A DNA stretch of 46,525 nt, from NCBI GenBank assembly GCA_020832405.1, contig JAFIET010000021.1, positions 1 to 46,525 of the forward strand, given 5' to 3'. The stretch's first letter is position 1. Every line of letters begins with the position of its first letter. A program made the position numbers and the translations under genes. Positions 2,148 to 46,525 of this stretch are shown here, piece after piece. The DNA is from Balneolales bacterium (GTDB lineage: Bacteria; Bacteroidota; Rhodothermia; Balneolales; Cyclonatronaceae). The notes under the pieces were generated by a model that made no database searches, had not been told where the DNA came from, and saw nothing but the letters and a program-made list of their open reading frames with translations.

Positions 2148-5100
2148 TTAGTCAGTTGTTAATTCTTTCGCAATCATTTCCGCTTGTTTTAATACCGTTT
2201 CTGTTGCCAGTTTTTGCATGTCTGGCGGATACCCGTATTGTCTTAAAGTCCGCTTGATGATGACTTTCAGTTTTGCTCTTACACTTTCTTTGATAGTCCA
2301 GTCGATAGAAGCATTTTGTTTTACCCGCTCGGTCAGAATCACAGCCAGCTCTCTTAGCTTGTCTTGCTGCATGAGTTGTTTGGCGGAGTCGTTATTGGCC
2401 ACGGCGGTGTAGAAAGCATATTCAAAGTCAGTCAGCCCAAGTTTTTTGGCTTCGCTGTCCATGTTCACGATTTCCTTACTCAGCTTGATGAGTTCGTCCA
2501 TCACTTCGGCAGCCGTCAAAATCTTGTTGTGGTATTTCTTGATTGAATGCTCCAACATTTCTTTAAGCGACTTACTCTTGACCAAGTTCTTTTTGGAACG
2601 AGCTTTTATTTCATCGTTCAGCAGTTTCTTCAAAACTTCCAGCGCCACATTCTTGTGTTCCATTCCTTTGAGTTCCATCAAGAAGTCTTCGGATAGAATT
2701 GAAATGTCTGGTTTCTTTATCCCGGCAGCATCAAAGACGTCAATTACTTGTTCAGAAACCAAGGCTTGGTCAATGACTTGACGAATGGTGGTTTCAATTT
2801 CTTCATCAGTTCTACCTGAACCTGTAACGTCAAACTTGGCTAATCGTGCTTTAACGGCTTGAAAAAATGAAACTTCATCTTTCACGTCCATCGCTTGCTC
2901 ATGCGGTACGGCAATCGCAAAAGCTTTGGATAGTGCTGTTACTTCATTGATATATCGTTTCTTTCCATCTTCTAGTCCGAGAATGTGTTCTTCTGCTGCG
3001 AGAATCATGGAAAGTTTTTGTCCTGTTTCTGCTTGGAAATATTCTTCATATGGGAATCCGTTGTACATCTGCGAAACCACTTCCAGTTTTTCGAGCATCA
3101 ATTCAACGGCTTGGGCTTGGGCAATGGTTGGGTCGCCTTTTCCTCCGGCATCTGAGTAAAACGAAAGTGCTTTTTTCAAATCAGAAGCGATACCCAAGTA
3201 ATCCACTACCAAACCACCTGGCTTGTCTTTGTAAACCCGATTTACCCTTGCAATGGCTTGCATCAGGTTGTGGCCTTTCATCGGTTTATCTATATAAAGC
3301 GTGTGCATACTGGGCGCATCAAAACCGGTAAGCCACATATCTCGAACAATCACCAGTTTCAGTTCATCATCCGGGTCTTTCATGCGGTCGGCAAGTGTTC
3401 TCCTTTGTTGTTTGGTGGTGTGATGTTTGGCGATTTTAGGCCCATCTGAAGAGGAAGAAGTCATGACGACTTTAATCACACCTTTGTCCAAATCGTCCGA
3501 ATGCCACCCGGGTTTTAGTTTGATGATTTCATCGTACAAGTCTGCGGCAATTCTTCTGGACATGGCCACAATCATTCCTTTGCCTTCAAATACTTCTTGG
3601 CGTTGACCAAAATGCTGAATGATATCGTTCGATACATTCTTGATTCGGTTTTCACTACCGATTAAGGCTTCCAATTGTGTCCATTTGGCTTTAGCTTTTT
3701 GGGTTTCGGTGAGTTCTTCACCGTCCAACTCATCATCCAATTCCTCAACCAGCTTTTTGCCTTCTTCGCTTAGGTTCACTTTCGCCAAACGACTTTCGTA
3801 GTAAATGCGAACGGTTGCTCCGTCTTCTACCGCTTGAGCAATATCATACACATCAATGTAATTTCCGAAAACGGCAGGGGTATTTACATCGGTATTTTCA
3901 ATGGGTGTACCCGTAAAACCAATATATGTGGCATTGGGCAAAGCATCACGCATGTACTTGGCAAAGCCATACACGGTTTTCTTTCCAATCACATTGCCAT
4001 GTTCGTCTTTCTCATCTACCGTTTTTGCTTTGAAGCCGTATTGAGTTCGGTGGGCTTCATCGGCAATCACTACAATGTTTTCACGTGCTGAAAGGGTTTC
4101 ATAGACATTGCCTTCTTCGGGTGAGAATTTTTGAATGGTGGTAAATATCACCCCACCAGAAGCTACTTTCAGTTTTTCCTTTAAATCGTTTCGGTTTTCA
4201 ATCTGTTTTGGTTCCTGCCTTAGCAACTGAGTGGAAGAAGCAAAGGTATCAAAGAGTTGGTCGTCCAAATCGTTACGGTCGGTGATGACCAGAACAGTGG
4301 GATTGTCCAAGGCCAACACGATTTTACCTGTGAAGAACACCATGGAAAGGGATTTGCCACTTCCCTGAGTATGCCAAACTACACCACCTTTTCGGTCGCC
4401 TTTGGGTTGTGATTTTACACCCGCCACACCATAACTTTCTGGTGATTCCATCACCATACTGGTAGGCGTTTCTTTTTCCAATGTGTAGCCTGTGGCTCGC
4501 ATGGCAGATTCTACCGCTCGGTTTACGGCATAGTATTGATGATAAGCCGCTAATTTTTTGACTGTTGAAATGATGGTAACGCCCGTTTTTGAATCTTCCT
4601 TTTTCGATTTTTCAAACACAATGAAATGCCTAACTAAATCCAGCAAGGTTTCTTTGTTGAGCATTCCATTGATGAGTGTTTCCATTTGACTCACCAAATG
4701 CGATGCTTCTTCTTTGCCGTCTGCCGATTTCCAAGCCATAAAACGACTCATGCCCGATGAAAGTGTTCCTGCTCTTGCTTCTAATCCATCAGAGATAATT
4801 GTGAACGCATTGTAAGTAAACAGACTTGGAATAACTGCTTTGTAGGTTTCTATCTGGCGGTAAGCAGATTTGATGGTGGCGTTTTCATCTGCTGCATTTT
4901 TGAGTTCGATGACCACTAAAGGAATGCCGTTGACAAAGAGAATAACATCAGGGCGTTTGTTTACGCCATCTTCCACCACCGTAAACTGATTGGCAACAAT
5001 AAAGTCGTTGTTTTCGGGTGTGTTGAAGTCGATTAACCACACCAAATCACCTCTTTGCTGACCATCTTTCTGATAGCTGACTTTGATACCTTCTGTCAAT

Positions 5101-5375
5101 AAGCGATGGAAGCTTTCATTGTTGGTCAATAATTCTGGCGAATGGATGCGCTGAATCTCCTTAATGGCTTCTTCTTGTGCTGCAGATGGCACGGTGGGGT
5201 TAATTCTTCGCACTGCTTCTGCCATACGATGGGTGAGCAGAATTTCTTGGTAAGAACTCCGCTCGGGATTTTCGCCATCATGGGCAATATTTGGGGCATA
5301 GATGTATTCATAGCCCAAATGCTCCAACAATTTGATGGCAAAATCTTCAATACTATGTTCGGTTATTCTTGTCAT
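2148..5375 (-). CDS. hsdR: Type I restriction enzyme, endonuclease/translocase subunit HsdR
   Basis: A 1075-residue R subunit, a full-length size for this family. The N-terminal nuclease domain has the PD-(D/E)XK residues in RPDVILFVNG (Asp143) and VVIELKN (Glu157, Lys159). Superfamily 2 motor motifs follow: HTQGSGKS (335-342, Walker A), DEAH (439-442), then FTGTPIEN, WLTGFDAPSMHTLYIDKP and QAIARVNRVY. HsdR binds the HsdM-HsdS methyltransferase, reels in DNA with ATP and cleaves at a distance when the recognition site is unmethylated. The helical C-terminus (about 790-1075) is the usual region that contacts HsdM. The ATG at 5375 lies 10 bases after the stop of the Shedu-like gene, so hsdR is probably the last gene of the operon. 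No frameshift is seen and all catalytic residues are present. Confidence 0.96.
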   Translation of the reverse strand: MTRITEHSIEDFAIKLLEHLGYEYIYAPNIAHDGENPERSSYQEILLTHRMAEAVRRINPTVPSAAQEEAIKEIQRIHSPELLTNNESFHRLLTEGIKVSYQKDGQQRGDLVWLIDFNTPENNDFIVANQFTVVEDGVNKRPDVILFVNGIPLVVIELKNAADENATIKSAYRQIETYKAVIPSLFTYNAFTIISDGLEARAGTLSSGMSRFMAWKSADGKEEASHLVSQMETLINGMLNKETLLDLVRHFIVFEKSKKEDSKTGVTIISTVKKLAAYHQYYAVNRAVESAMRATGYTLEKETPTSMVMESPESYGVAGVKSQPKGDRKGGVVWHTQGSGKSLSMVFFTGKIVLALDNPTVLVITDRNDLDDQLFDTFASSTQLLRQEPKQIENRNDLKEKLKVASGGVIFTTIQKFSPEEGNVYETLSARENIVVIADEAHRTQYGFKAKTVDEKDEHGNVIGKKTVYGFAKYMRDALPNATYIGFTGTPIENTDVNTPAVFGNYIDVYDIAQAVEDGATVRIYYESRLAKVNLSEEGKKLVEELDDELDGEELTETQKAKAKWTQLEALIGSENRIKNVSNDIIQHFGQRQEVFEGKGMIVAMSRRIAADLYDEIIKLKPGWHSDDLDKGVIKVVMTSSSSDGPKIAKHHTTKQQRRTLADRMKDPDDELKLVIVRDMWLTGFDAPSMHTLYIDKPMKGHNLMQAIARVNRVYKDKPGGLVVDYLGIASDLKKALSFYSDAGGKGDPTIAQAQAVELMLEKLEVVSQMYNGFPYEEYFQAETGQKLSMILAAEEHILGLEDGKKRYINEVTALSKAFAIAVPHEQAMDVKDEVSFFQAVKARLAKFDVTGSGRTDEEIETTIRQVIDQALVSEQVIDVFDAAGIKKPDISILSEDFLMELKGMEHKNVALEVLKKLLNDEIKARSKKNLVKSKSLKEMLEHSIKKYHNKILTAAEVMDELIKLSKEIVNMDSEAKKLGLTDFEYAFYTAVANNDSAKQLMQQDKLRELAVILTERVKQNASIDWTIKESVRAKLKVIIKRTLRQYGYPPDMQKLATETVLKQAEMIAKELTTD

Positions 5376-5385
5376 TCAATATATG

Positions 5386-6666
5386 CTAATTCACTTTGCC
5401 CATCATGAGCTCTTTAAGGTTATTGAATCTTGCTAGCAGTTCATCAAAGGTTAATATTTCTACATCCTTGCTATTGCTTCGGAATAATTCAAAAGATCCC
5501 AGTTCTTTGGCACTCAAATCTGAAATAGAGCCCATCAATACGACACACTTTGAATTAAAGGTTTCAAATCCCTTATCCTCACTATTCATCTTGTGAATGG
5601 CAAATTGTTTTTGAAAATTATCACGTTGATTGAGAACCTGTGAAATACCACCTGACAAATCGGAACTCATAGAGAATACATCATTTCCTCTGTAAGCTGA
5701 TCCCTTCTTAACTAATTCAGTCTTATGGGTTTTGATTTCAATAAATGCGACATTATTGGTAAGGTTGTTTTTAACCAAAAAGTCTGTAACCTTTCCGTTT
5801 TTATTTGAAATTCCTTTACCACCCACATAAGCCTCATCTTCATGCAAAATGATTGGAAAGGAAAAAATGTAAGAGAAAATCCAACTATGCTTTTTTAAGA
5901 ACCCTTGCCATTTCTTCTCAAGATTCTTCGTTTCAGTTTTTTGTTGCATCAATTTTTCGTACTCTGCAATTACGTCATCAATGTATTGCTCGTCTATCGT
6001 CTCTTTGGTTTTCAGCAAACTTTCAGGTGAAATGAATCCATCTGCAAGCATGAGTTTTTCAAAGAGTTCCTTTATGGCTTCTTTGTCAGTGTTTGAAAAT
6101 TCATCAAGAGATTGCTTCCAAGTTGAAAGTGCAGTAGATATTGAATTCTTTACATATTCCCTTTCAGCGGAATCAATTGCAGTTGGAAACAGCTTATGAA
6201 GCTCTTCTGATGCAAGAACTTCTCTGTCTTGTTTCTGAATATCTAAATTGTGTTGGAAAACTTCGTGAAGTTTTATCAAGTCACTCTCCGATAAGGTTAG
6301 TGTCTTTCTATCAGCACTAAAAATGCTTTCACCTGTTTTGATGATTCTTATGGTGTCGGTCGGGAAACTTGCTTCAATGAATTCAATTAATGGCTTAAGA
6401 ACTTTTGTAAATCCCAAGCCTCTTGATGACGACTTACTGACGCCAACTGGTAATTGATTACCAAAACCTTCATAAATGAACTGCTTAACTTTTAAATATT
6501 TCGGTCCTCCATTAAAACCAATAGGGTAGTGAACAACTTTGTCTGACCTTTTAAAAACTTCACGGCAAATCTGGTCAATACCTTTTTCAGAGTCTACAAA
6601 ATGATAAACCTCTTTTGTAGTCAAGTTTCTTCTTAATTGTTCTTCTCTTATTGGTTCGTCTGCCAT
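5386..6666 (-). CDS. Shedu-like (SduA, DUF4263-type) anti-phage nuclease
   Basis: A 426-residue protein whose C-terminal half carries the Shedu hallmarks: LEKKWQGFLKKHSWIFSY (about 249-266), TDFLV (Asp295), AFIEIKTHKTEL (Glu310, Lys312), YRGNDVFSMS (325-334) and SGGISQVLNQRDNF (338-351, with the downstream Gln). Asp-(x)n-Glu-x-Lys is the PD-(D/E)XK catalytic set. Known SduA proteins form oligomers and act as single-gene anti-phage nucleases with varied N-terminal sensor domains. Here residues 1-150 are an unrecognised domain, and a helical segment (about 165-245) joins it to the nuclease. The gene sits inside the type I R-M operon, 20 bases after hsdS and 10 bases before hsdR, and is clearly AT-richer than hsdM or hsdR, suggesting separate acquisition. 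The start at 6666 is the only one consistent with the spacing. The family call is by motif; the placement is the unusual part. Confidence 0.82.
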   Translation of the reverse strand: MADEPIREEQLRRNLTTKEVYHFVDSEKGIDQICREVFKRSDKVVHYPIGFNGGPKYLKVKQFIYEGFGNQLPVGVSKSSSRGLGFTKVLKPLIEFIEASFPTDTIRIIKTGESIFSADRKTLTLSESDLIKLHEVFQHNLDIQKQDREVLASEELHKLFPTAIDSAEREYVKNSISTALSTWKQSLDEFSNTDKEAIKELFEKLMLADGFISPESLLKTKETIDEQYIDDVIAEYEKLMQQKTETKNLEKKWQGFLKKHSWIFSYIFSFPIILHEDEAYVGGKGISNKNGKVTDFLVKNNLTNNVAFIEIKTHKTELVKKGSAYRGNDVFSMSSDLSGGISQVLNQRDNFQKQFAIHKMNSEDKGFETFNSKCVVLMGSISDLSAKELGSFELFRSNSKDVEILTFDELLARFNNLKELMMGKVN

Positions 6667-6686
6667 AGGATATAGTATTGTTTTAT

Positions 6687-7895
6687 TCAGTTCATAATTC
6701 GCACTTCTCCGCTCATAAGTTTTGGAAGAAGAGTGTCCCTTATTTCTTCTAGATTTCGGATGTGTTTAATATTCTTGTTCGATTTTTCAATCAGTGGTTT
6801 CACTTGACTGGTAAACTCAGCAACTAATTCCTTTGGTGGTAGGAAAAATTCATATGATGGAACAGCCTGTTTGCTTAGATGTAAAACTGTGGAACCATTC
6901 GAATAGCCCAAACAATGTTGTTTAAAGTCTCTTGATTTCATTTGATAGTACAGAAACTCTTTGCTTAACCAATCGTGGTTTGACACAACTTTTACTAAAT
7001 CCATCGAAATCAACAATGTTTTGTACTCTCTTCTCCCAATAACCATTATCGGATTACCGATTAAAGCAGCATCTTGTGTTATATCGGTATGAGCGACTAC
7101 AAGGTCTCCTTCATTGACAATATGTTGTTCTTTATACTTTCCTGTGTATTCCTTAAAACCATCAAGCCTAAAGCCGCCATCTCTCGCAAAGCTCTTTAAC
7201 GTTATCATTGCTGTATCTGATGGATTCAAGTCAGCTGATTTGTATGAGACTCCATTAAAGCAGGTGACAAAGTTTTCAAGTGATGTGAATTCCCACTCAT
7301 CATCTACTTCCTCCACAAACCACTGCCGAAACAGCGTCTCCGCCATTTGCTCCAGGGTTTGGTTTTGGCGGTGCAGCAGGTCTATTTTGTCGTCTAAGCT
7401 GGAAAGGACGGATGCGATTTCGTTTTGTTCCTTTAAGGGTGGATATGAAATAGGAATTGTCTTTAGAATTCCAGTGTTTATTGAAGGCATTGTCGCACCA
7501 ACGGCAATGTTTATTATGTAGTCTCTGAAGCTTTTTTGTTGAACGAAATATGATAAGAAACGAGAATTTATTTCTTTACTAGGTCTTACTCTAAGCATGC
7601 GTGAAGAAAACATCCATCCATTTTGACCTTTACTTACATAAGCACTTAAATCAACCGAACCAACTCTTGTAAAGAGAATGTCGCCTTCTTTCATTAAGTA
7701 TTTACTCAATCTTTCCTTATCCTCATTAGTAATGCTTGGATAGTCAAAGTCAATAATTCTGAAATCTTTAATATGCTCTACTGTTACTACGGGTGTGCCG
7801 CCAGTAATGTATTGTTCATTTTTAAGCTGACTTCCAAATGGGCCAGTCTGAACATGTGCAACTTCGCCAAGCTCTATTTCTTTCCACTCACTCAT
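6687..7895 (-). CDS. hsdS: Type I restriction-modification specificity subunit HsdS
   Basis: About 402 residues with the two-target-recognition-domain layout. TRD1 begins [20 protein letters not shown]. The central conserved helix region is PPLKEQNEIASVLSSLDDKIDLLH (about 152-175), running on to ETLFRQWF. TRD2 begins WEFTSLENFVTCFNGVSYK, and a second conserved region is PPKELVAEF ... LRNLEEIRDTLLPKLMSGEV. HsdS sets the bipartite DNA site for methylation and cleavage. I chose the ATG at 7895 (MSEWKEI) over a GTG at 7904, because that ATG forms an 8-base overlap with the stop of the small upstream gene. The middle conserved region (about 7310-7440) is visibly GC-richer than the two flanking TRDs, a mosaic pattern expected when TRDs are swapped by recombination. 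The recognition sequence cannot be predicted. Confidence 0.94.
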   Translation of the reverse strand: MSEWKEIELGEVAHVQTGPFGSQLKNEQYITGGTPVVTVEHIKDFRIIDFDYPSITNEDKERLSKYLMKEGDILFTRVGSVDLSAYVSKGQNGWMFSSRMLRVRPSKEINSRFLSYFVQQKSFRDYIINIAVGATMPSINTGILKTIPISYPPLKEQNEIASVLSSLDDKIDLLHRQNQTLEQMAETLFRQWFVEEVDDEWEFTSLENFVTCFNGVSYKSADLNPSDTAMITLKSFARDGGFRLDGFKEYTGKYKEQHIVNEGDLVVAHTDITQDAALIGNPIMVIGRREYKTLLISMDLVKVVSNHDWLSKEFLYYQMKSRDFKQHCLGYSNGSTVLHLSKQAVPSYEFFLPPKELVAEFTSQVKPLIEKSNKNIKHIRNLEEIRDTLLPKLMSGEVRIMN

Positions 7896-8361
7896 TCTCA
7901 ACACCCTTTATGAAAAAACGATAAGTTGGTTCGGTACTTCCAATTTGCACAAATACACCAATCAAGTAATTGTAATTATCATTTGGGTCAGTAAGGTCTT
8001 CTAATTTTTGCAAATCAGAAGCTATATCATTATTCCACCAACCCTTAAACTCCGCGACTAATTTGTTTTCTTCATTTGAGTCTCGTCTATGAATAATTAA
8101 ATCAGGTCGCAATCCATTCGGAAACCTTCTAGACGTCTTGGCATTACCATGATTTTTGTTGTATTCAGAATCTAGGTCAAGTGCTTCATATTCTGTTCCG
8201 TCTAAAAGTTGACTCAGATAAACTCCTGTTCTGAATACAAATGCTTGTTCCAAGCCAGCTCTTTCCCCTTGAGCAAATTCAAGAAGAAATCTTTCTTCTT
8301 GATAAACTGAGTTAATTGCATTTCTCAGTAAGTCCACCAATATTTGTTGTTCCTCACTCAT
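7888..8361 (-). CDS. Small PD-(D/E)XK nuclease-like protein inside the hsd operon
   Basis: A 157-residue soluble protein that I cannot name. [10 protein letters not shown] (Asp88) and [10 protein letters not shown] (Glu105, Lys107; numbering from an in-frame TTG one codon upstream) form an intact PD-(D/E)XK core. An N-terminal helix contains Glu39, and after the core come [10 protein letters not shown] and [11 protein letters not shown], matching the helix and strand that normally follow such a core. It lacks any helicase or DNA-recognition module. It overlaps the hsdM stop by 8 bases (8354-8361) and the hsdS start by 8 bases (7888-7895), and both junctions have the identical sequence ATGAGTGAG. 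Translational coupling with hsdM and hsdS is therefore likely. It may be an accessory nuclease, a regulator of the complex or an inactive scaffold. Base composition is AT-rich, like the Shedu-like gene. The gene is well supported; the function is inference. Confidence 0.8.
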
Positions 8362-9901
8362 CAATTTTCACTTTTTTAAGGTTAGCGGCAATGCGTTCGT
8401 TCAGTTCGGCTTCTTCTTTGAGTTGGGCTGCAAACTCGGCTTTTAGGCTGGTAAAGCGTTCAGTAAAATCAAAGTCATCTTCCTCCTCGGCCAAGCCCAC
8501 ATAGCGGCCTGGGGTAAGTACATAGTCCAGTTCGGCTACCCGTTCTTTGGTGGCAGAAGCACAGAAGCCTTTTACATCTTCATAGTTGCCATCCACATTT
8601 CGCCAGTTGTGGTAGGTGCTGGTAATCTGGTCAATGTCTTCTTGAGACAACACCTTGGTTCTGCGGTTGATCAAATGCCCCAGGTTGCGGGCATCAATAA
8701 AGAGCATTTCGCCTGTTCGGTTTCGAAACTTGCCATTGCTACGGTTACGGCTCATAAACCAAAGCGAAGCAGGGATTTGGGTATTCAAAAACAACTTGGC
8801 AGGCAGGTTTACGATGCAGTCAATTAAATCGGCTTCCACTAATTCTTTTCTAATATCACCTTCACCACCACTTTTGGAAGTCAGTGCACCTTTTGCCAAC
8901 ACAAAACCCGCTTGTCCGCTGGGTGCCAAGTGGTACATGAAATGTTGAATCCAAGCGTAGTTGGCGTTTCCTGTAGGTGGTGTGCCGTATTTCCAGCGGC
9001 CATCGGTACGCAGTAAATCACCGCTCCAGTCGCTCACATTAAACGGTGGGTTGGCAATAATATAATCAGCTTTCAGGTCTTTGTGGGCATCATTCAAAAA
9101 CGAGCCTTCGTTGTTCCATTTCACCTGTGAGCTATCAATGCCTCTGATGGCCAAATTCATTTTGGCTAGACGCCAAGTGGTTTGGTTGCTTTCCTGTCCG
9201 TAAATGGAAATGTCATTGATGCGTCCTTGGTGGCTGGTGACAAATTCCTCAGATTGTACGAACATTCCACCTGAACCACAGCAAGGGTCAAATACCCGCC
9301 CTTTGTAGGGTTCGAGCATTTCAACCAAAAGTTCAACAACGCTTCTTGGCGTGTAGAACTGTCCGCCCTTTTTACCTTCTGCCAAGGCAAATTCGCCAAG
9401 AAAGTATTCAAACACATGTCCGAGAATATCTGCACTTCGGGATTTGGCATCACCCAAGGCAATATTTCCAATCATGTCTATGAGTTCCCCCAAACTGGTG
9501 GGGTCAAGATTTTGTCGGGCATACACTTTGGGCAAAACGCCTTTCAGTGAAACGTTTTCTTTTTCAATGAAGTCCATGGCTTCATCTACCGATTTACCAA
9601 TGGTGGGTTGCTTAGCTTGTGAGAGCAAATAAGACCAACGGGCTTTCTCTGGCACGAAGAACACATTCTCAGCTTTGTATTCGTCCTTGTCCTCTGGGTC
9701 GGCTCCTACGTATTCGCCTTCACCTGCTTTTAGTTTATCGTAGAGTTCTTCAAACGCATCTGAGATGTATTTCAGGAATATTAGTCCGAGTACTACGTGT
9801 TTGTATTCCGCAGCATCAATGTTTTTTCTCAGCTTGTCAGCCGATTTCCAGAGTTGTTTTTCCAACGGTTCTTCGGTTCCGTTTCCGTTTTTTTTTGCCA
9901 T
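8354..9901 (-). CDS. hsdM: Type I restriction-modification N6-adenine methyltransferase HsdM
   Basis: A 515-residue M subunit. It has the N-terminal helical HsdM domain ([35 protein letters not shown]), the linker [20 protein letters not shown] (about 179-198), the SAM-binding motif [11 protein letters not shown] (204-214) and the catalytic NPPF (284-287). Two HsdM plus one HsdS form the methyltransferase that protects host DNA, and the same complex recruits HsdR. It is the first gene of the minus-strand operon. The ATG at 9901 begins [18 protein letters not shown], the usual M-subunit start. The C-terminus ends KKVKIDE, and its TGA is embedded in the start region of the small nuclease-like gene. 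About 600 bases of AT-rich non-coding DNA lie upstream, holding direct repeats and a palindrome. Confidence 0.96.
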
Positions 9902-9936
9902 TTAATTTAAGTTCTTTTTATCAGTTTCAAATTTCA

Positions 9937-9958
9937 TCTTTTCTGTCCGAGCGTTGGC
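9937..9958. repeat. Right copy of the direct repeat that flanks the restriction island
   Basis: This 22-nt stretch is the partner of 2037-2061. It lies 35 bases upstream of the hsdM start codon. A further GCGTTGGC occurs at 9985-9992. Confidence 0.6.
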
Positions 9959-10043
9959 ATCAAAACAGGCTCTTTGGGTTTTTCAGCGTTGGCTTTGCGT
10001 GTAGGCAAAAACCAAATGTGTCTGTTTGAGCGCAGAATGTTGC

Positions 10044-10056
10044 ACAACTTAGTTGT
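10044..10056. repeat. Small dyad in the hsd upstream region
   Basis: ACAAC (10044-10048) and GTTGT (10052-10056) flank TTA in the run TTGCACAACTTAGTTGTAGGC. Only the dyad itself is supported. Confidence 0.35.
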
Positions 10057-10239
10057 AGGCGTATTAAACATGCGCTTTACATGCCAATATAGAAGTATAG
10101 GTGAATATTAGTTTCGTTTTATTGATGATTGATATGTTCAATTTGATTACCAATGTTCCTGCCTAATAAATACTTATTGCATAGCACATTACTCTCTCCC
10201 AAGTCGCAATAGTAAACAAAATTCAACCTTAACAACTTC

Positions 10240-10312
10240 CGGGTGGTCAATAAGTACAAATACGGGTGGTTAATAGTGCATGATTTCTGGAGTCGTATAA
10301 GTAATTACTTAT
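10240..10312. promoter_or_regulatory. Putative control region of the hsd operon
   Basis: CGGGTGGTCAATA (10240-10252) and CGGGTGGTTAATA (10263-10275) are 13-nt direct repeats with one difference, spaced 23 bp apart (about two helical turns). A perfect 16-bp palindrome, ATAAGTAATTACTTAT, follows at 10297-10312. These lie 340-410 bases upstream of hsdM in an AT-rich stretch with no credible gene. They could bind a regulator of the island, but no controller gene is visible. I could not assign a promoter with confidence. Confidence 0.35.
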
Positions 10313-10350
10313 GCAGCTTCGACCGTTATATAAAAGTACGTCAAACCCCT

Positions 10351-10404
10351 AAAAAAAAAAAATTTATTCCGTAATTTTTTTCTTTCTGCCGGCCCCCCCC
10401 CCCC
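10351..10404. repeat. Long homopolymer tracts (A12 and C12)
   Basis: Twelve As at 10351-10362 and twelve Cs at 10393-10404 lie in the non-coding junction between the restriction island and the envelope operon. Such tracts are slippage-prone in replication and are also sites of assembly error. Confidence 0.7.
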
Positions 10405-10418
10405 AAACCCACAAACGC

Positions 10419-10437
10419 CCGCCCCGGTGCGGGGCGG
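10419..10437. terminator. GC-rich hairpin at the 3' end of the envelope operon
   Basis: An 8-bp stem (CCGCCCCG with CGGGGCGG) and a GTG loop lie 65 bases past the stop of the NHL-repeat lipoprotein gene. On the plus strand it is followed by CCTTTT; on the minus strand, the direction of the operon, the T-tract is poor. Its role as a terminator is therefore uncertain. Confidence 0.45.
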
Positions 10438-10501
10438 CCTTTTGTGGTGGTAATGCTCAGTAATTTTTTTTGCTGCTGTGTTGCGCTTCTGTCGCGAAAT
10501 G

Positions 10502-11833
10502 CTACTCAAAATCGGTGTTGAGGCGGAAGCGGGAGATGCGGTTGTTGTTGGTGTCGGCTACGTACACGATGCGGCGGAAGTAAGCCACGCCGGAGGGGTT
10601 GTCGAATTCACGGGCACCGTTGCCGGTGCCGCCGAAGGAGACGTTGATCGCGCGGGTACCGGAGGAGCCCGGCGGCGGGTTTACGCCTTCGATGCCGTTC
10701 GACTGAAACAGGTACAGGCTGTCGCGGGCCGCATCTACTACGAAGATGTGGGCGCGCTCGTCGCCGGAGAAGGCGATGCCGCTCGGGTTGGTGAAGCGGT
10801 TTTGGTCGTACAGAAAGCTTCTTGCCCGGGTCGTGTCGCGGTTCAGCAGGTTGGGGTTGGAGCGGTACTCGATACCGTCAGGCGTGTTTACCGCATTCAC
10901 CCAAAGTACGCGAAACGGTATATCGCGGGGGTTATCCGGGTCAGGGGCGCCCTGCGACATCAGGAAGCTGCGGTCAGCGGGTACGTTGTCGCGCTGCGGA
11001 GGCGTGGCAAAGGTTGCGATATCGGTGAGGTCGATTGCGCTGGTGAGCGAGGGCGAGTTCGGGTTGAGCGCCCGGATCTGACTCGTGTTGCGCATGCGGG
11101 CCGGGTTGTTGGCAACAGGGCTCATAATCAACACGGTGTTGTCCTGCGTGATGGCTTCACCGGTACGGTTCCGGGGACCGCGGCGGGTTACGTACAGCTC
11201 GTTGTTAGCCAGGGTCGAAAGACCGGTGATTTCAACAAGCTCGTCGTTGTCCGGGATGTTGCGGTTCAGGCGGTTCCGCTGGGAAGCGGTCGTTGCGCGG
11301 CTGGCGTCCATAAAAGGATGCACCATCACCTGTACGAGTTCGATCGGGCCGGCGCCGTTTGCATTTTTGATTTTGTACACAGCCGGCAGGTTCCAGGTAA
11401 TGTCCGGATTCACGGCGGTAATTACGGTGTCGTAGCGGGCAGCCACGTAAACGTTCAGCAGGCGGTCCTGCGTAACGGCTACGGCATTGCGGAGGCTCGC
11501 GTTCTGAGACGCGCTGATGTCAAAGTCACCGGCATCGCTCAAAGTGAGGTAGCGGCGGCCGGCGCGGTCGAGCACGTGCAGGCCATCGGCATCGGTTACG
11601 TACACAAGCTCGTCATAGCCTACAAAAATGTCCGTTGGTTTGTTGAAGAAATCCCAGAAAGGCAGCAGGGCAACGTAGCCCACATCTTCCACAATCAGGT
11701 TCGGATCAAGCCGGCCATCCTCAAATATCTCGTCGGTTATGCGGTCCTGTTTGGAGCCGAACATATCCTCACAGGCGGTGAGTAATGCCACGGCGGCCGC
11801 AAACAGAAAAAGGGTAGTAAAGAACTGCTTCAT
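10502..11833 (-). CDS. NHL-repeat (beta-propeller) lipoprotein
   Basis: A 443-residue protein beginning MKQFFTTLFLFAAAVALLTAC, a lipoprotein signal peptide with the lipid-accepting cysteine at 21. The body is beta-strand-rich. A conserved unit is seen at PTDIFVGYDELVYVTDADGLHVLD (about 65-90), at NPSGIAFSGDERAHIFVVDAARDSLYLF (about 350) and at NPSGVAYFRRIVYVADTNNNRISRF near the C-terminus: the G-x-A/V ... hydrophobic-V-A/V-D-x-x-N-x-R-x-x-x-F pattern of NHL repeats. NHL propellers usually bind proteins, peptides or glycans. It is the last gene of the six-gene envelope block, 21 bases after the PorV-type gene. Since other genes of the block encode outer-membrane and exported proteins, a surface or periplasmic role beside the receptor is likely; the ligand is unknown. 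Confidence 0.78.
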   Translation of the reverse strand: MKQFFTTLFLFAAAVALLTACEDMFGSKQDRITDEIFEDGRLDPNLIVEDVGYVALLPFWDFFNKPTDIFVGYDELVYVTDADGLHVLDRAGRRYLTLSDAGDFDISASQNASLRNAVAVTQDRLLNVYVAARYDTVITAVNPDITWNLPAVYKIKNANGAGPIELVQVMVHPFMDASRATTASQRNRLNRNIPDNDELVEITGLSTLANNELYVTRRGPRNRTGEAITQDNTVLIMSPVANNPARMRNTSQIRALNPNSPSLTSAIDLTDIATFATPPQRDNVPADRSFLMSQGAPDPDNPRDIPFRVLWVNAVNTPDGIEYRSNPNLLNRDTTRARSFLYDQNRFTNPSGIAFSGDERAHIFVVDAARDSLYLFQSNGIEGVNPPPGSSGTRAINVSFGGTGNGAREFDNPSGVAYFRRIVYVADTNNNRISRFRLNTDFE

Positions 11834-36678: not shown

Positions 36679-37047
36679 CTATGCTACCGGTTCCGGTTCC
36701 TGAATCAGAATTTCCGCCGGAATACCGAGCTTTTTACTCAGGATCTGAATTTGCCGGAGTGAAAGTGAACGCTTACCGGAAAGTATTTCACTTGCCCTGG
36801 ATTTTGACCCCAGTAATTTCGCCAGATCTGTTTGCTGCATGCCCAACTGATCCATCCGGAATTTGATCGCTTCTGCCGGTTTGGGCGCCTCAACCGGAAA
36901 GTGCTTTTTCTCATAATCTTCTGCCAAAATGCCCAGGATTTCCAACTCATCGCCTTCTTTCGTACCCGGTTTGGCATCAAAAATTTCTTCAATACGCGCT
37001 AAGGCTTCCTCGTAATCTTTTTCGGTATGTATGGGTTTGATTTGCAT
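36679..37047 (-). CDS. higA: HigA-type antitoxin (XRE-family helix-turn-helix)
   Basis: 122 residues. The N-terminal part (DYEEALARIEEIFDAKPGTKEGDELEILGILAEDYEKKHFPV) is the helical extension typical of HigA-type antitoxins paired with HigB toxins. The C-terminal part (AIKFRMDQLGMQQTDLAKLLGSKSRASEILSGKRSLSLRQIQILSKKLGI) is a Cro/CI-type helix-turn-helix, with recognition helix around SKSRASEIL. It would bind and block HigB and repress the pair's promoter. It is 14 bases downstream of the toxin gene, the toxin-first order usual for HigBA. The ATG at 37047 starts MQIKPIHTEKDYEEAL. Confidence 0.92.
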   Translation of the reverse strand: MQIKPIHTEKDYEEALARIEEIFDAKPGTKEGDELEILGILAEDYEKKHFPVEAPKPAEAIKFRMDQLGMQQTDLAKLLGSKSRASEILSGKRSLSLRQIQILSKKLGIPAEILIQEPEPVA

Positions 37048-37061
37048 GATGGATTTCCGGA

Positions 37062-37355
37062 TTAAATGGTTGTTGCATCAATTTTGTCGTATTCAGCATG
37101 TGTACCCACAAAACGGATAAAAACCTGTGCGTAGTCATAATTAATTTTGACGACTAACCGATAGCTGTTGCCTTTGATGTTGAAAACCACACGGTTGTGA
37201 GCAAGAATGCTGGCGTGCGGATATTTTCGTTTAATATCAGCAGGTGATTTCCATTGGGCAATTTCTGTTTCAGAAAACCAAGCCTTTAAAGCACCTTCAC
37301 TATCGGAATAATGGTTCCAAAATTCACGTAATATTTTTCGGGCAAATACTCGCAT
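37062..37355 (-). CDS. higB: HigB-type toxin (ribosome-dependent mRNA interferase)
   Basis: 97 residues of the HigB/RelE-like fold: MRVFARKILREFWNHYSDSEGALKAWFSETEIAQWKSPADIKRKYPHAS, then VFNIKGNSYRLVVKINYDYAQVFIRFVGTHAEYDKI. The latter contains N-I-K-G-N-x-Y-R-L and the H-A-E-Y-D ending typical of HigB_toxin proteins. The family cleaves mRNA at the ribosome and slows growth when the antitoxin is lost. It is the first gene of the pair and appears intact. A GTTCC/GGAAC dyad sits 16-32 bases upstream of the ATG at 37355 and is a candidate HigA operator. Confidence 0.92.
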   Translation of the reverse strand: MRVFARKILREFWNHYSDSEGALKAWFSETEIAQWKSPADIKRKYPHASILAHNRVVFNIKGNSYRLVVKINYDYAQVFIRFVGTHAEYDKIDATTI

Positions 37356-41782: not shown

Positions 41783-43102
41783 ATGCCTACCCTCCTCCTT
41801 TCCGCTGATCTCCACCTGGGGCGGCGCGCGGCTGCGGCTGCCGCCGGTTCTGCTGCCGGGGCCGGGGCTGGTTTCGGGCCGGAACCGGACCTGCTCCGGG
41901 CTTCGGCCGGCTGGCTGCGGCTGGCCCGGCTCGCGGCTGATTCCCGTGCCGGGGCTGTGCTGCTGGCCGGCGATGTGGTCGATGAGGCCTCCGGTTTTTT
42001 CGAGGCCTTTGAGGCGCTTGCCGCCGGACTCTCGCTGCTTCGCGACCACGATATTCCGGTTGTCGTTACTGCCGGCAACCACGATTTTGAGGTGCTGCCG
42101 GCCCTGCTGCGTCAGCTGAACCTGCCGAATGTGCATTTTCTGGGTGAAGGCGGCCAATGGAGCGGTATCACCCTTAGCCTTTCGGGCACCGAAATACAGT
42201 TTGTGGGATGGTCGTTTCCGGCCCGGCATGTGTATGATGATCCCCTGCTGTCGCTGCCCGCTGACCTCCTCCGGAACGATATTCCGGTGATTGGCCTGGT
42301 GCACGGCGATTATGCGGTGCGGGAGAGCAGCTACGCGCCGCTTTCGCCTGCGCGTATGCAGCAGGCGGGCGTTACGGCCTGGGTTACGGGACACATCCAT
42401 AAGCCGGCGGTGCTGCAGTCATCCGGCCCTTTTATCGCTTACCCGGGCTCGCTTCAGGCGCTGAGCCCCAAGGAGACCGGGCCGCACGGGGCCATGCGCC
42501 TCACCCTCGAAGGCGGCCGCCTCACGCACGGGTTCATCCCGCTTTCGGCGGTGCGCTACGAGTCGCTTCCGGTGCCGGCCGGGGACATTTCTACCGAGAC
42601 GGATTTACGTGCGGCCGTGCAGCAGTCGGTCACGGACTTTTGCCGTCAGAATGAGGCTGATCTGGGGGAGGTCAGCCGGCTCGTTGCCGATCTGCGGTTT
42701 ACGGGCACGCACCCCGATCCGGAAGGCCTTCAGCGACATATCGGGGCCGTGGCTCAGGAGGAATTCCGGAGCGGCGGGCTGCTGGTTACGCTCCGCCGCC
42801 TGGTCTCAGAAGCCAGGCCCGGGCTGCCTCCGCTGGAAACCCTTGCCGCGGAGACAGGTCCGGCGGGCGTGCTCGCCGCGCAGCTGCTCACGCTTCGGGA
42901 GAAGCCCGAAAGTCCGGAGTCGGTTGCATTCATCCGGCGCATGACCGAAGAAATCTCAGCGGTCGGGCGGCTGCCGGTTTTCGCCCCGATTGCCGGCGGA
43001 CTGCCCGGAAGCACATCCCCCGAAACTATCACTCTGATCGAGGAGGAAATGCTGCGGCTGCTCACCGCACTCCTCCGGCAGAAGGAGGCGCAGCATGGCT
43101 GA
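41783..43102 (+). CDS. SbcD/Mre11/YhaO-like metallophosphoesterase
   Basis: 439 residues with all calcineurin-like metal motifs: SADLHLGR (Asp9, His11), LLAGDVVDE (Asp64), TAGNHDFE (Asn99, His100), LVHGDY (His174) and VTGHIHKP (His204, His206). The order and spacing match SbcD/Mre11 nucleases and their YhaO relatives. A low-complexity Ala/Gly loop (RAAAAAAGSAAGAGAG, about 15-30) interrupts the usual first loop. It overlaps the ATPase gene by 8 bases (43095-43102), the expected partner arrangement, so the two proteins probably form one complex acting on DNA ends. Whether it is closer to SbcD or to YhaO cannot be settled by eye; the C-terminal 200 residues are divergent. Confidence 0.88.
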   Translation: MPTLLLSADLHLGRRAAAAAAGSAAGAGAGFGPEPDLLRASAGWLRLARLAADSRAGAVLLAGDVVDEASGFFEAFEALAAGLSLLRDHDIPVVVTAGNHDFEVLPALLRQLNLPNVHFLGEGGQWSGITLSLSGTEIQFVGWSFPARHVYDDPLLSLPADLLRNDIPVIGLVHGDYAVRESSYAPLSPARMQQAGVTAWVTGHIHKPAVLQSSGPFIAYPGSLQALSPKETGPHGAMRLTLEGGRLTHGFIPLSAVRYESLPVPAGDISTETDLRAAVQQSVTDFCRQNEADLGEVSRLVADLRFTGTHPDPEGLQRHIGAVAQEEFRSGGLLVTLRRLVSEARPGLPPLETLAAETGPAGVLAAQLLTLREKPESPESVAFIRRMTEEISAVGRLPVFAPIAGGLPGSTSPETITLIEEEMLRLLTALLRQKEAQHG

Positions 43103-46100
43103 AAACGTACACCTTAAAACGATCCGGATTTCCGAAAGTCCGGGGTTTCCGGGCGGGCTGAAGCTGCCCGAGGGCGAATTCAGCCCGGGTATCAACATCA
43201 TCGCGGGGCCGAATGCAGCGGGCAAGAGCACGCTGGCCGGGGGCATGCAACGGATGCTGTTTGGGCGCACCGACCGGCGCTGGCGGCTGAGCGGGGCGTT
43301 CCGCGCGGCACAGTCCGAATGGCGCAGCACGCTTTCGGGCGACAGCGCGACCTTTTTGCAGGGCGGTCAGCCCAAGAGTTTCAGCAGCGGACTACCCGAT
43401 TCCGCGGCGGAGCGCTACCTGCTGTCGCTGCACGACCTCATCCGGGCGGAGGAGCGCGACCTCTCGGCCGAAATTCAGCGTCAGATTATCGGCGGCTACG
43501 ATCCCGATGCCGCGCTGCGAAGCCTCGGCTACCCGAATGCGAGGCCTAACCTGGGCATTACGGAGTACCGCGAGCATCAGGCTGCGGAAAGTGCTGTGCG
43601 GGAGCGCACACAGGGCGACCGCGAGCTGCGGCAAAAATCGGGACGCCTCGATGCCCTCAGCCGGAGCATCCGCAGGGCCGGGGAGCAGCTGCAAGAACTG
43701 GATTTCCTGAAGCTGCTCGGGGCCTGGCGCGGGGCGGAAACCGCCGCTGAGGAAGCCCGGCTCCGGCTTAACGCACTGCCGCCCATACCCGAAACCATGC
43801 GGGAGGGTCACCCGGCCGAGCTGCGCGGGCTGAACGAAAAAATCGATGAAAGCCGCAAGGCGCTTGACCAAGCCACGCACGCCCAGAACGCCCACGGCGA
43901 GGCGCTCGAAGCGCTGGGTCTGCCGGAAACGGGCATCAGCCGGACCGATCTGGACGAGCTTGAAGAGCGGATGGAAGAGGCTGCTGAAATCACCCGCGAG
44001 CTTCATTCCCAACGGCTGGAATTGTCGGATGCGGAGGTCAGCTGTGAAAGGCACCGGCGCCTGATTAACAGCAGCATCGCGGAGGAACAGCTTCGGGATT
44101 TCCGCGCGGAAGACGCGGAGGAACTGGAGGAATTTTCCCGAAGCCTGAGCGGACTGCTGATGCAGATGCGTCAGCTCGAAGCCCGCATCCGGTACCTTGA
44201 ATCTCTGGCCGACCCGGCCCCGCTGCCTGAGGACACATCGCTGCGCACCGCCATCCGGGCGCTGTCTGACTGGCTGGCCGAACAGCGGCGTCCGGCGGGC
44301 ATCCCGCCACTCTGGCTCTGGCTGCTGGCAGGTGCCGGACTCCTCGCGGGCACGCTCACCCACCTTACAGACTGGGGCTGGCTCGCGCTCCTCCTCCTGC
44401 CCCTGCTGCTGGTTGCCGGGCTGAGGTCGGGCGAAAAAGAGAAGCACGAAAACCTCCGCATCCGGGAGGCAGACTTCCAAAAATCCGGACTTATTTTTAC
44501 GGGAGAGTGGGTTTCGGGGGATGTGCTCACAAACCTGAGCAGCTTTATCAGTCAGCTCGAAGTTCGTGTGAGGCAGGAACACATCACCCTTGAAAAAAAC
44601 AATCTTGCGCGGCAGCTTCAGGAAAAACGAGAGGCGCTTCAGCGGCTTGATCCGCAGCTGAGAAGCCTGAAAGAGGCGCTGGGCGCGCTGCCTGATTTCG
44701 GGGAGCTGCATGAGAAGCCGGCGGCGGTTTTTGTGCTGGTGAAGTCCGTGCTTGAATGGCAGGCCGCTGACCAAAAGCGGGCGCAGGGCAAGGCGCGCAT
44801 CACCCTAAACGAAACGGCGCTGCGCGGAGCACTCGCCGAAATGCACCGGCTGATGCGGCCCTACGAAACCGGGCCGGAAACGCAGCCGGCGGATATTGCC
44901 GCGGCACAGGCTCGGATCAGGGAGCTGCGCCGGAAGGATGAAAACTGGCGCAGGCTTCAGGAGAAAATCAATGCGGTCAGCAGGGATATAGCCTCCCTGG
45001 AACGGGAGCTGGCGGGGAACCGTGAGCGGCTCGGCGCGCTGCTGAACGAACTCGGACTGGATGCTGCGGATCAGGCGCGGCTTTTCGAGTGGGAAGAGCG
45101 CTTCGCGGAATGGCGCGGGGCGCGAGAGGAGGTCCGCGATGGGGAGCAGCGCGCGCAGATCGAGAAAAACCGCGTGATGCAGCATCCGCTGTTTGCGGCG
45201 CAGAGCGATGCGGTTTTCCTGACGGATGCCGCTGAAATCGAAACCCGGATTTCGGAACTCTCCGGCGTTCAGGAGGAGCTGGCGGCGCTTCAGACACAAA
45301 AAACCGAGACCGAAACCCTGATTGCGCAGGCGCGGCGGGCGCATAGCATGGAGGAAGCGCTGGCCCAAAAGGCGGATGCGGAGGAAGCCCTGCGGCTGCG
45401 GTTTGAGCAAAGCTGCCGGGCGGCGGCGGGTGAGGGGCTGCACCGCTGGCTGAAGGAGCGGGTTACGCGCGACAATGTGCCCGTGCTGCTGGAGCAGGCG
45501 CGGGCGTATTTCAGCGACATTACGCAGGGGCGGTACGAGCTTGTAAGCGACGGCGGATTTTCGGCCTGGGATGTGAAGGATGGCACCATGCGCGGCCTTG
45601 ACGAGCTTTCGAGCGGTACGCGCATTCAGCTGCTGCTGTCGGTGCGGCTGGCGTGGATCGAAACGCAGGAAAGCGGGCTGCGTTTTCCGCTGTGGTGCGA
45701 TGAGCTGCTGGCCAACAGCGACGACCTGCGGGCGCAGGCGATCATCGGGGCGCTGGCGGAAATCAGCCGGAAAGGCCGGCAGATTTTCTATTTCACCGCG
45801 CAGGGCGATGAGGTCGCCAAATGGCAGCAGCTGATTGCGGAGCATTACCCGGCGACGGAGCTGCGGTTTTTCCAACTTGCGGGTGAAGCTGAACAGCCGG
45901 CCCGGGCCATCGGTTCGGAGGCTGTGTTCGCCCCGCTGGCCCTGCCCGAAGTACCGGCTGCGGCCGGCAGAAGCATCGCAGCCTACTGTGAAGCGCTGGC
46001 GCTGCCCCGCTTCGATCCGCTCACGCAGGATGCGGAGCAGCTGCACCTCGCGGAGCTGCTTGAGGATGCGGACCTGCTCGAAAAACTGCTCCGGCTGGGC

Positions 46101-46525
46101 ATCAGCGTGTGGGGTCAGCTGCGCGCGCAGCTTGGACATCCGGCCATCCAAAAACTGCTGCCCGCCGCGGAGGCCGACAGGCTTCAGCAAAAAGCCCGGC
46201 TGCTGGATTACCGCATCAGGCTCTGGCGCACTGGCCGGAACAAGCCGGTCAGTGCGGCCGAAATCGACGCCTCCGGCGCGGTCAGCGACACCTTCCGGGA
46301 GCGGGTCATAGCCCTGCTGGAAAGCGACGACTGCGCCAACGACCCGGAAAAGCTGATTGCGGCGCTAAATGCCGGTAAAATCACCGGCTTCCGCAAAAAC
46401 AAAACCGACGAGCTCGAAGCGTGGTTTGCGGCACAGGGCTTCCTCAGCAGCGAGGCCCCGCTGAGCGAGGAGGATATCGCCCTGCGGCTGCGGCTGTTCG
46501 CGGAAGAGGAGGGGATGGAGGTGGG
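43095..46525 (+). CDS. SbcC/Rad50/YhaN-like ATPase with transmembrane hairpin (3' end outside window)
   Basis: Open from the ATG at 43095 to the last base, over 1140 codons with no stop, so the end is missing. The N-terminus has GINIIAGPNAAGKSTLAGGMQRMLFG (Walker A, residues 38-46). Long coiled-coil halves follow (for example EARIRYLESLADP and RELRRKDENWRRLQ), then DELSSGTRIQLLLSVRLAWIE (ABC signature around 838-841) and FPLWCDELLANSDD (Walker B, Asp869-Glu870). Between the coils, at about 405-420 and 427-442, are two strongly hydrophobic stretches (PPLWLWLLAGAGLLAG and WLALLLLPLLLVAGL) that look like a membrane hairpin, a feature of YhaN-type proteins but not of classical SbcC. After the ATPase head about 240 further residues of unknown function extend to the window edge. 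It is coupled to the phosphoesterase by an 8-base overlap. Confidence 0.88.
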   Translation, partial: MAENVHLKTIRISESPGFPGGLKLPEGEFSPGINIIAGPNAAGKSTLAGGMQRMLFGRTDRRWRLSGAFRAAQSEWRSTLSGDSATFLQGGQPKSFSSGLPDSAAERYLLSLHDLIRAEERDLSAEIQRQIIGGYDPDAALRSLGYPNARPNLGITEYREHQAAESAVRERTQGDRELRQKSGRLDALSRSIRRAGEQLQELDFLKLLGAWRGAETAAEEARLRLNALPPIPETMREGHPAELRGLNEKIDESRKALDQATHAQNAHGEALEALGLPETGISRTDLDELEERMEEAAEITRELHSQRLELSDAEVSCERHRRLINSSIAEEQLRDFRAEDAEELEEFSRSLSGLLMQMRQLEARIRYLESLADPAPLPEDTSLRTAIRALSDWLAEQRRPAGIPPLWLWLLAGAGLLAGTLTHLTDWGWLALLLLPLLLVAGLRSGEKEKHENLRIREADFQKSGLIFTGEWVSGDVLTNLSSFISQLEVRVRQEHITLEKNNLARQLQEKREALQRLDPQLRSLKEALGALPDFGELHEKPAAVFVLVKSVLEWQAADQKRAQGKARITLNETALRGALAEMHRLMRPYETGPETQPADIAAAQARIRELRRKDENWRRLQEKINAVSRDIASLERELAGNRERLGALLNELGLDAADQARLFEWEERFAEWRGAREEVRDGEQRAQIEKNRVMQHPLFAAQSDAVFLTDAAEIETRISELSGVQEELAALQTQKTETETLIAQARRAHSMEEALAQKADAEEALRLRFEQSCRAAAGEGLHRWLKERVTRDNVPVLLEQARAYFSDITQGRYELVSDGGFSAWDVKDGTMRGLDELSSGTRIQLLLSVRLAWIETQESGLRFPLWCDELLANSDDLRAQAIIGALAEISRKGRQIFYFTAQGDEVAKWQQLIAEHYPATELRFFQLAGEAEQPARAIGSEAVFAPLALPEVPAAAGRSIAAYCEALALPRFDPLTQDAEQLHLAELLEDADLLEKLLRLGISVWGQLRAQLGHPAIQKLLPAAEADRLQQKARLLDYRIRLWRTGRNKPVSAAEIDASGAVSDTFRERVIALLESDDCANDPEKLIAALNAGKITGFRKNKTDELEAWFAAQGFLSSEAPLSEEDIALRLRLFAEEEGMEV

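Follow-up and report, generated by a model that had tools for sequence, protein, structure and literature searches.

The two genes at the end of this contig raise the question of what a Mre11-type phosphoesterase does when its Rad50-like ATPase bears hydrophobic segments in the place of a zinc hook. The window, that is, the whole stretch of 46,525 nucleotides that was analyzed, ends with an open reading frame (ORF) for a phosphoesterase (positions 41783-43102, + strand, 439 aa) followed, with an overlap of 8 bases, by one for an ATPase (43095-46523, + strand, 1143 aa) whose 3' end is open. The reading that we favor, at a probability of roughly 0.6, is that the pair is a membrane-tethered Mre11-Rad50 nuclease of the YhaN/YhaO type that would process DNA ends beside the membrane; within this reading we infer that the ATPase inserts into the membrane, that the pair cuts DNA, that a C-terminal tail binds DNA and that the processed ends are handed over. 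The ATPase gene is incomplete because the window is the whole of contig C96 and the ATPase runs off its end. Little of the window ATPase is missing, however, since L023, its closest relative of full length (52% identical), ends only about 15-20 residues beyond the cut.

The relatives named individually here are the best 80 of 160, selected first with two head patterns and next on top score, a selection that favors full-length proteins. Three of these 80 loci (L078, L109 and L111) yielded no ATPase ORF. Organism labels of MAGs may be wrong. Full-length ATPase relatives numbered 76 with the window included, corresponding to 70 distinct ones since six contigs were counted twice. Where the start of the ATPase was intact, the phosphoesterase partner lay directly upstream on the same strand in 61 of 67 loci, and in 56 of these 61 the two genes overlapped or lay within 30 bp of each other. 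Profile and structure matches bore out the original prediction of an SbcCD-like pair, composed of a Rad50-type head and a Mre11-type phosphoesterase partner.

The phosphoesterase was assigned to the Mre11/SbcD/YhaO-type metallophosphoesterases. It matched Metallophos (6.4e-9) and, at 38.5 bits, the sbcd model TIGR00619, a score under the NCBIfam cut-off of 77.65, and a profile of 12 relatives matched SbcD/Mre11 structures in the PDB with a best value of 6.8e-18. Residues D9, H11, D64, N99, H100, H174, H204 and H206, taken as the Mre11 metal site, are all present in the window protein, as had been predicted, and each is kept in 72-75 of the 75 rows compared, the remainder being gaps or single substitutions.

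The ATPase is a coiled-coil protein of the Rad50/YhaN type that matched AAA_23 at 1e-6. Its P-loop, GPNAAGKS (residues 38-45, positions 43206-43229, + strand), contains G38, G43 and K44, invariant in 45 sequences, and the half of the head with the signature and Walker B motifs (LSSGT, DELLANSDD and FYFTAQ; residues 835-915, positions 45597-45839, + strand) has invariant columns at S839, Q845, D869, E870, L872, D876, F898 and Y899. When the 45-relative profile was searched against the PDB, Rad50 ranked first (4.8e-11). The AF2 model of the ATPase (pLDDT 79.5, pTM 0.46) has a split head of the Rad50 type, whose N- and C-terminal halves are linked through a coiled coil; the helices of the coil fall within residues 156-371 and 474-793. 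The modelled head superposed on Rad50 4nck_A with Z 20.2 and an rmsd of 3.3 A over 262 residues, and the top six structure matches were all Rad50, with Z from 20.2 to 19.0.

Within this fold, the closest affinity of the ATPase is with YhaN/YhaO, because the 45-member profile scored 105 bits to a YhaN-type protein (L034) and nothing significant to the canonical SbcC tested, a result that upholds the YhaN kinship suggested beforehand. AAA_27 gave 67.4 bits for L034 and 20.2 for the window ATPase, under the Pfam cut-off of 22; among six other members scanned singly, L175, L061 and L094 pass and L084, L037 and L023 fail. COG4717 is the family label for the YhaN/YhaO-type pair.

The pair was found in 14 of the 59 genomes of a close set, its own genome included. 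Labels among the best 80 of 160 relatives comprise Bacteroidota, Balneolales, Spirochaetia, Planctomycetota, Elusimicrobia, Chloroflexi-type organisms, Verrucomicrobia, Fuchsiella and ten haloarchaea, amongst others. This occurrence is patchy: the full tail of the ATPase is present in 12 of the 296 near-complete genomes of the phylum, always on ORFs of at least 1139 aa, and the pair in three of six genus genomes, all six of which have SbcD above the cut-off. Such patchiness favors the alternative that survives best, namely that the pair is a system dedicated to defense against phages or plasmids, in which a nuclease tethered to the membrane destroys DNA entering or replicating there. We regard it as possible, with odds clearly below even. 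In its favor are also the relatives on plasmids (in 9 of the 72,556 records searched, all nine of them haloarchaeal), the position of GajA-GajB at L086, 13 bp upstream of the phosphoesterase and on the same strand, and the comparison of genomes G000 and G005, in which the pair phosphoesterase (61% identical) diverges faster than canonical SbcD (80%), PEP carboxylase being 90% identical between the two. Against it, matches of the window pair in the PADLOC library were short or weak only, L086 was the sole locus with a Gabija neighbor among 77 surveyed, and the best neighbor signal is that of AddAB/RecBC, which are also repair enzymes. Diversifying selection was considered as a clear sign of defense and set aside, as canonical SbcC diverges nearly as fast (58%) as the pair ATPase (52%) in the same comparison.

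Other records searched for relatives included those of phages, where 2 of 50,697 matched, weakly and with 12% covered. The annotation in one haloarchaeal plasmid record consists of "SMC family ATPase" and "DNA repair exonuclease" only. At L086, positions 2797-11453 hold an apparent one-strand run of GajA, GajB, phosphoesterase and ATPase, behind a restriction-type helicase.

The neighbor survey covered 77 loci with 824,253 flanking bases. AddAB/RecBC-type genes adjoin the pair in four clear cases: the order addB-addA-phosphoesterase-ATPase, with all four genes on the same strand, in L084 (Fuchsiella) and L087 (a Verrucomicrobia MAG), convergent AddA and AddB next door to the pair in L067 (Halorientalis), and RecB and RecC beside it in L077 (a Bacteroidales MAG). 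In L072, a probable further case, the ATPase is directly followed by one UvrD_C and one PDDEXK_1 protein as well as a UvrD-like fragment, and in L061 and L097 PDDEXK_1 (PD-(D/E)XK nuclease) genes lie about 5 kb from the pair. If one cluster per 4 Mb is assumed, about 0.2 AddAB neighbors would be expected by chance in these bases, a figure that is a rough estimate and not a simulation. Roughly 70 of the 77 loci had no AddAB/RecBC, nuclease or Gabija neighbor within the flanking DNA surveyed. A search for AddA with TIGR02785 at 1e-30 found none in the window's genome and was positive in one of the six genomes examined. Overall, the original prediction, which gave incoming phage or plasmid DNA as an example of a target, is plausible in its broad lines, and the gene context points to DNA-end processing with AddAB/RecBC at least as much as to defense.

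This context also bears on a somewhat less probable alternative, in which the pair is an ordinary replacement for SbcCD in chromosome repair and the membrane link is incidental. The gene order of L084 and L087, from two phyla, agrees with the order addB, addA, sbcD, sbcC reported for B. subtilis (PMC1533848). Additionally, the pair-bearing genomes of the 59-genome close set that lie outside the genus have no canonical SbcD above the cut-off, which was exceeded in 2 of 20 further host genomes. The window's genome, however, carries canonical SbcC and SbcD on contig C13 besides the pair, and strict replacement was rejected for this reason. The pair is neither a duplicate of SbcCD nor a strict substitute for it.

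In the genus, ppc is near the pair in genomes G000 and G001 and about 24 kb from it in G005, and the ppc neighborhoods examined in the three pair-less genomes hold other genes. In G005, the interval that separates ppc from the pair (contig C1, 3759727-3783226) has one complete and four partial peroxiredoxin copies spread over about 24 kb, as if repeatedly duplicated. The window itself contains a type I restriction-modification cluster at 2148-9901 (- strand) with HsdR (604 bits), HsdS-like and HsdM-like genes, where GC is about 35-44%, compared to about 50-65% for most of the contig. At 36679-37355 (- strand) lies a gene for a HigB-like toxin, followed by an HTH antitoxin-like gene.

The favored reading of a membrane-tethered nuclease depends on the hydrophobic segments that the original prediction had placed at the zinc-hook position of the ATPase. 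These were recovered at residues 403-443 (positions 44301-44423, + strand), where the coiled coil turns back. In a Kyte-Doolittle scan of the window ATPase, residues 403-421 scored 1.56 and residues 425-443 scored 1.77, with at most 1.11 elsewhere, and the AF2 model has helices at 405-422 and 429-443 between the coil arms, at low confidence (pLDDT about 50-60). Hydropathy in a single protein is weak evidence here because the ATPase is Ala/Leu-rich and shuffles often match it: when its composition was shuffled, the best 19-residue score was reached in 608 of 2000 shuffles and the best 41-residue score in 8 of 2000. The case for a membrane hairpin rests instead on conservation, as a hydrophobic block was found at the same place in all 76 full-length relatives (70 distinct), as two separate windows in 49 and as one in 27, and none of the 76 had a second block more than 60 residues away. 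In all of them the block consists of 34-49 nearly charge-free residues, with a mean Kyte-Doolittle value of 1.95 and 0.53 K/R per block. Downstream of the block there are 3.78 K/R per 15 residues, compared to a background of 2.01; the upstream flank, at 2.00, is unenriched. No CxxC occurs in the hairpin zone of any of the 76 relatives, whereas four canonical SbcC proteins of the genus have CPLC without a hydrophobic block. The YhaN-type L034 has two hydrophobic windows at residues 419-456. From these sequence features, the block probably forms a two-helix membrane hairpin. It is improbable that the block is instead a greasy dimerization tip outside the membrane, in a soluble complex where it would take over the role of the zinc hook. 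In favor of such a tip, its position in the AF2 model matches the hook/hinge dimerization site and single 19-residue segments of equal strength are common in shuffles; against it speak the long charge-poor block in every relative, the K/R-rich downstream flank and the same feature in a YhaN-type protein.

The tail that distinguishes the window ATPase follows the second half of the head and occupies residues 961-1143 (positions 45975-46523, + strand), where it is cut by the contig end. At least 240 residues had been predicted to follow the ATPase head, and 246 were counted from FYFTAQ to the cut end. The tail is no peculiarity of the window gene, since the same distance is 248-318 residues in the other 75 relatives. 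An artifact of frameshift or fusion in one genome was excluded by its presence in 76 of 76 rows and in the 12 phylum genomes mentioned above. Six more phylum genomes match only the first 18-26 tail positions. Stand-alone copies of the tail were also considered and rejected, as none was found in the window's own genome and these six short matches cover only the end of the head, the three that were examined being tail-less ATPases. Those three sisters, of 920, 930 and 934 aa (L175, 3096-5858, - strand; L176, 4930-7722, + strand; L177, 4667-7471, + strand), retain the hydrophobic block and are preceded by the phosphoesterase, and the hairpin is thus part of the core, while the tail can be lost. 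The tail is a domain that nearly all members of a distinct subfamily share and that one sister group has lost. The related ATPases of L031, L032 and L033 contain long low-complexity inserts, rich in Ala, Gly and Asp, both within the coil and ahead of the tail.

The search of the tail for domains, foreseen in the original prediction, yielded a confident model and neither a recurring Pfam family nor a Foldseek relative. Modelled alone by AF2 with 60 sequences, the tail is all-helical (pLDDT 91.5, pTM 0.73), with two subdomains that look helix-hairpin-helix (HhH)-like. Foldseek with this model found no relative (best E 0.59), a profile of the tail gave seven weak matches among PDB sequences (best E 0.013), and Pfam on the 60 tails returned 35 scattered families, none in more than three tails and with no HhH among the best 25 of the 35. 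A second structure comparison placed a chain of a RAD51 complex (Z 5.1) and PolX (Z 5.0) on top and others lower, all below the tool's own trust level; these chains bear HhH domains. Against the HhH domain of PolX from 30 loci, the tail profile aligned in hairpin register over subdomain 2, with a score reached by 3 of 200 column-shuffled profiles, and the score of subdomain 1 was reached by 13 of 200. Two Balneolales members, L029 and L030, have GVG hairpin signatures in their tails. Altogether, the modelled resemblance of the tail to HhH DNA-binding folds is suggestive only.

As a membrane-tethered nuclease of the YhaN/YhaO type, the pair could work as follows. The phosphoesterase would be the metal-dependent DNA nuclease, and the ATPase would form a folded-back coiled coil with a two-helix membrane hairpin at its apex in place of the zinc hook of SbcC/Rad50. 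With the apex so anchored, the rods would point away from the inner membrane and carry the heads and the nuclease at their free end. The tail, being behind the second half of the head, would be located at the head and probably helps to grip DNA or a partner. Near the membrane, the complex may bind the ends or hairpins of DNA and open or trim them, and the processed ends may be handed to a helicase-nuclease of the AddAB/RecBC type where one is present. More speculatively, and a little less probable than simple replacement of SbcCD, the pair might represent a widespread membrane-anchored branch of Mre11-Rad50 in bacteria and haloarchaea that, by means of a DNA-gripping HhH tail and together with AddAB/RecBC or Gabija, acts as an entry guard capturing and destroying linear DNA at the membrane.

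If the favored reading is true, a Rad50-type machine sits on the membrane, the site of incoming DNA and of some replication and segregation events. The natural tail-less relatives and the AddAB-linked versions provide material for testing the roles of the hairpin and the tail, and the variant is carried by tractable haloarchaeal and bacterial relatives. Judged by title or abstract, no paper in the literature searched treats this pair, and YhaN-type proteins are nearly absent from it; the available part of PMC10586767 mentions neither YhaN nor transmembrane.

Amongst known systems, the pair shares with canonical SbcCD/Mre11-Rad50 the Rad50 head fold, the coiled coil, the Mre11 metal site, the phosphoesterase-ATPase gene order and, in some genomes, the AddAB neighborhood. 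It differs in having a hydrophobic hairpin where canonical SbcCD has a CxxC hook, in its extra C-terminal tail and in an SbcD score below the NCBIfam cut-off. LmuB of Lamassu is likewise a Rad50-like coiled-coil ATPase, with PADLOC values of 3.6e-8 (window) and 1.8e-17 (L061), but the best stretch for its 611-position model covers only residues 7-47 of the window ATPase, and the Lamassu partner gene is unlike the phosphoesterase found here. GajA-GajB of Gabija are unrelated proteins, neighbors of the pair in L086 and not its kin. YhaN/YhaO-type systems likewise combine an ATPase bearing a hydrophobic hairpin in mid-coil with a phosphoesterase partner, but the YhaN-type L034, of 887 aa, stops at the head, whereas the window ATPase continues into the tail.
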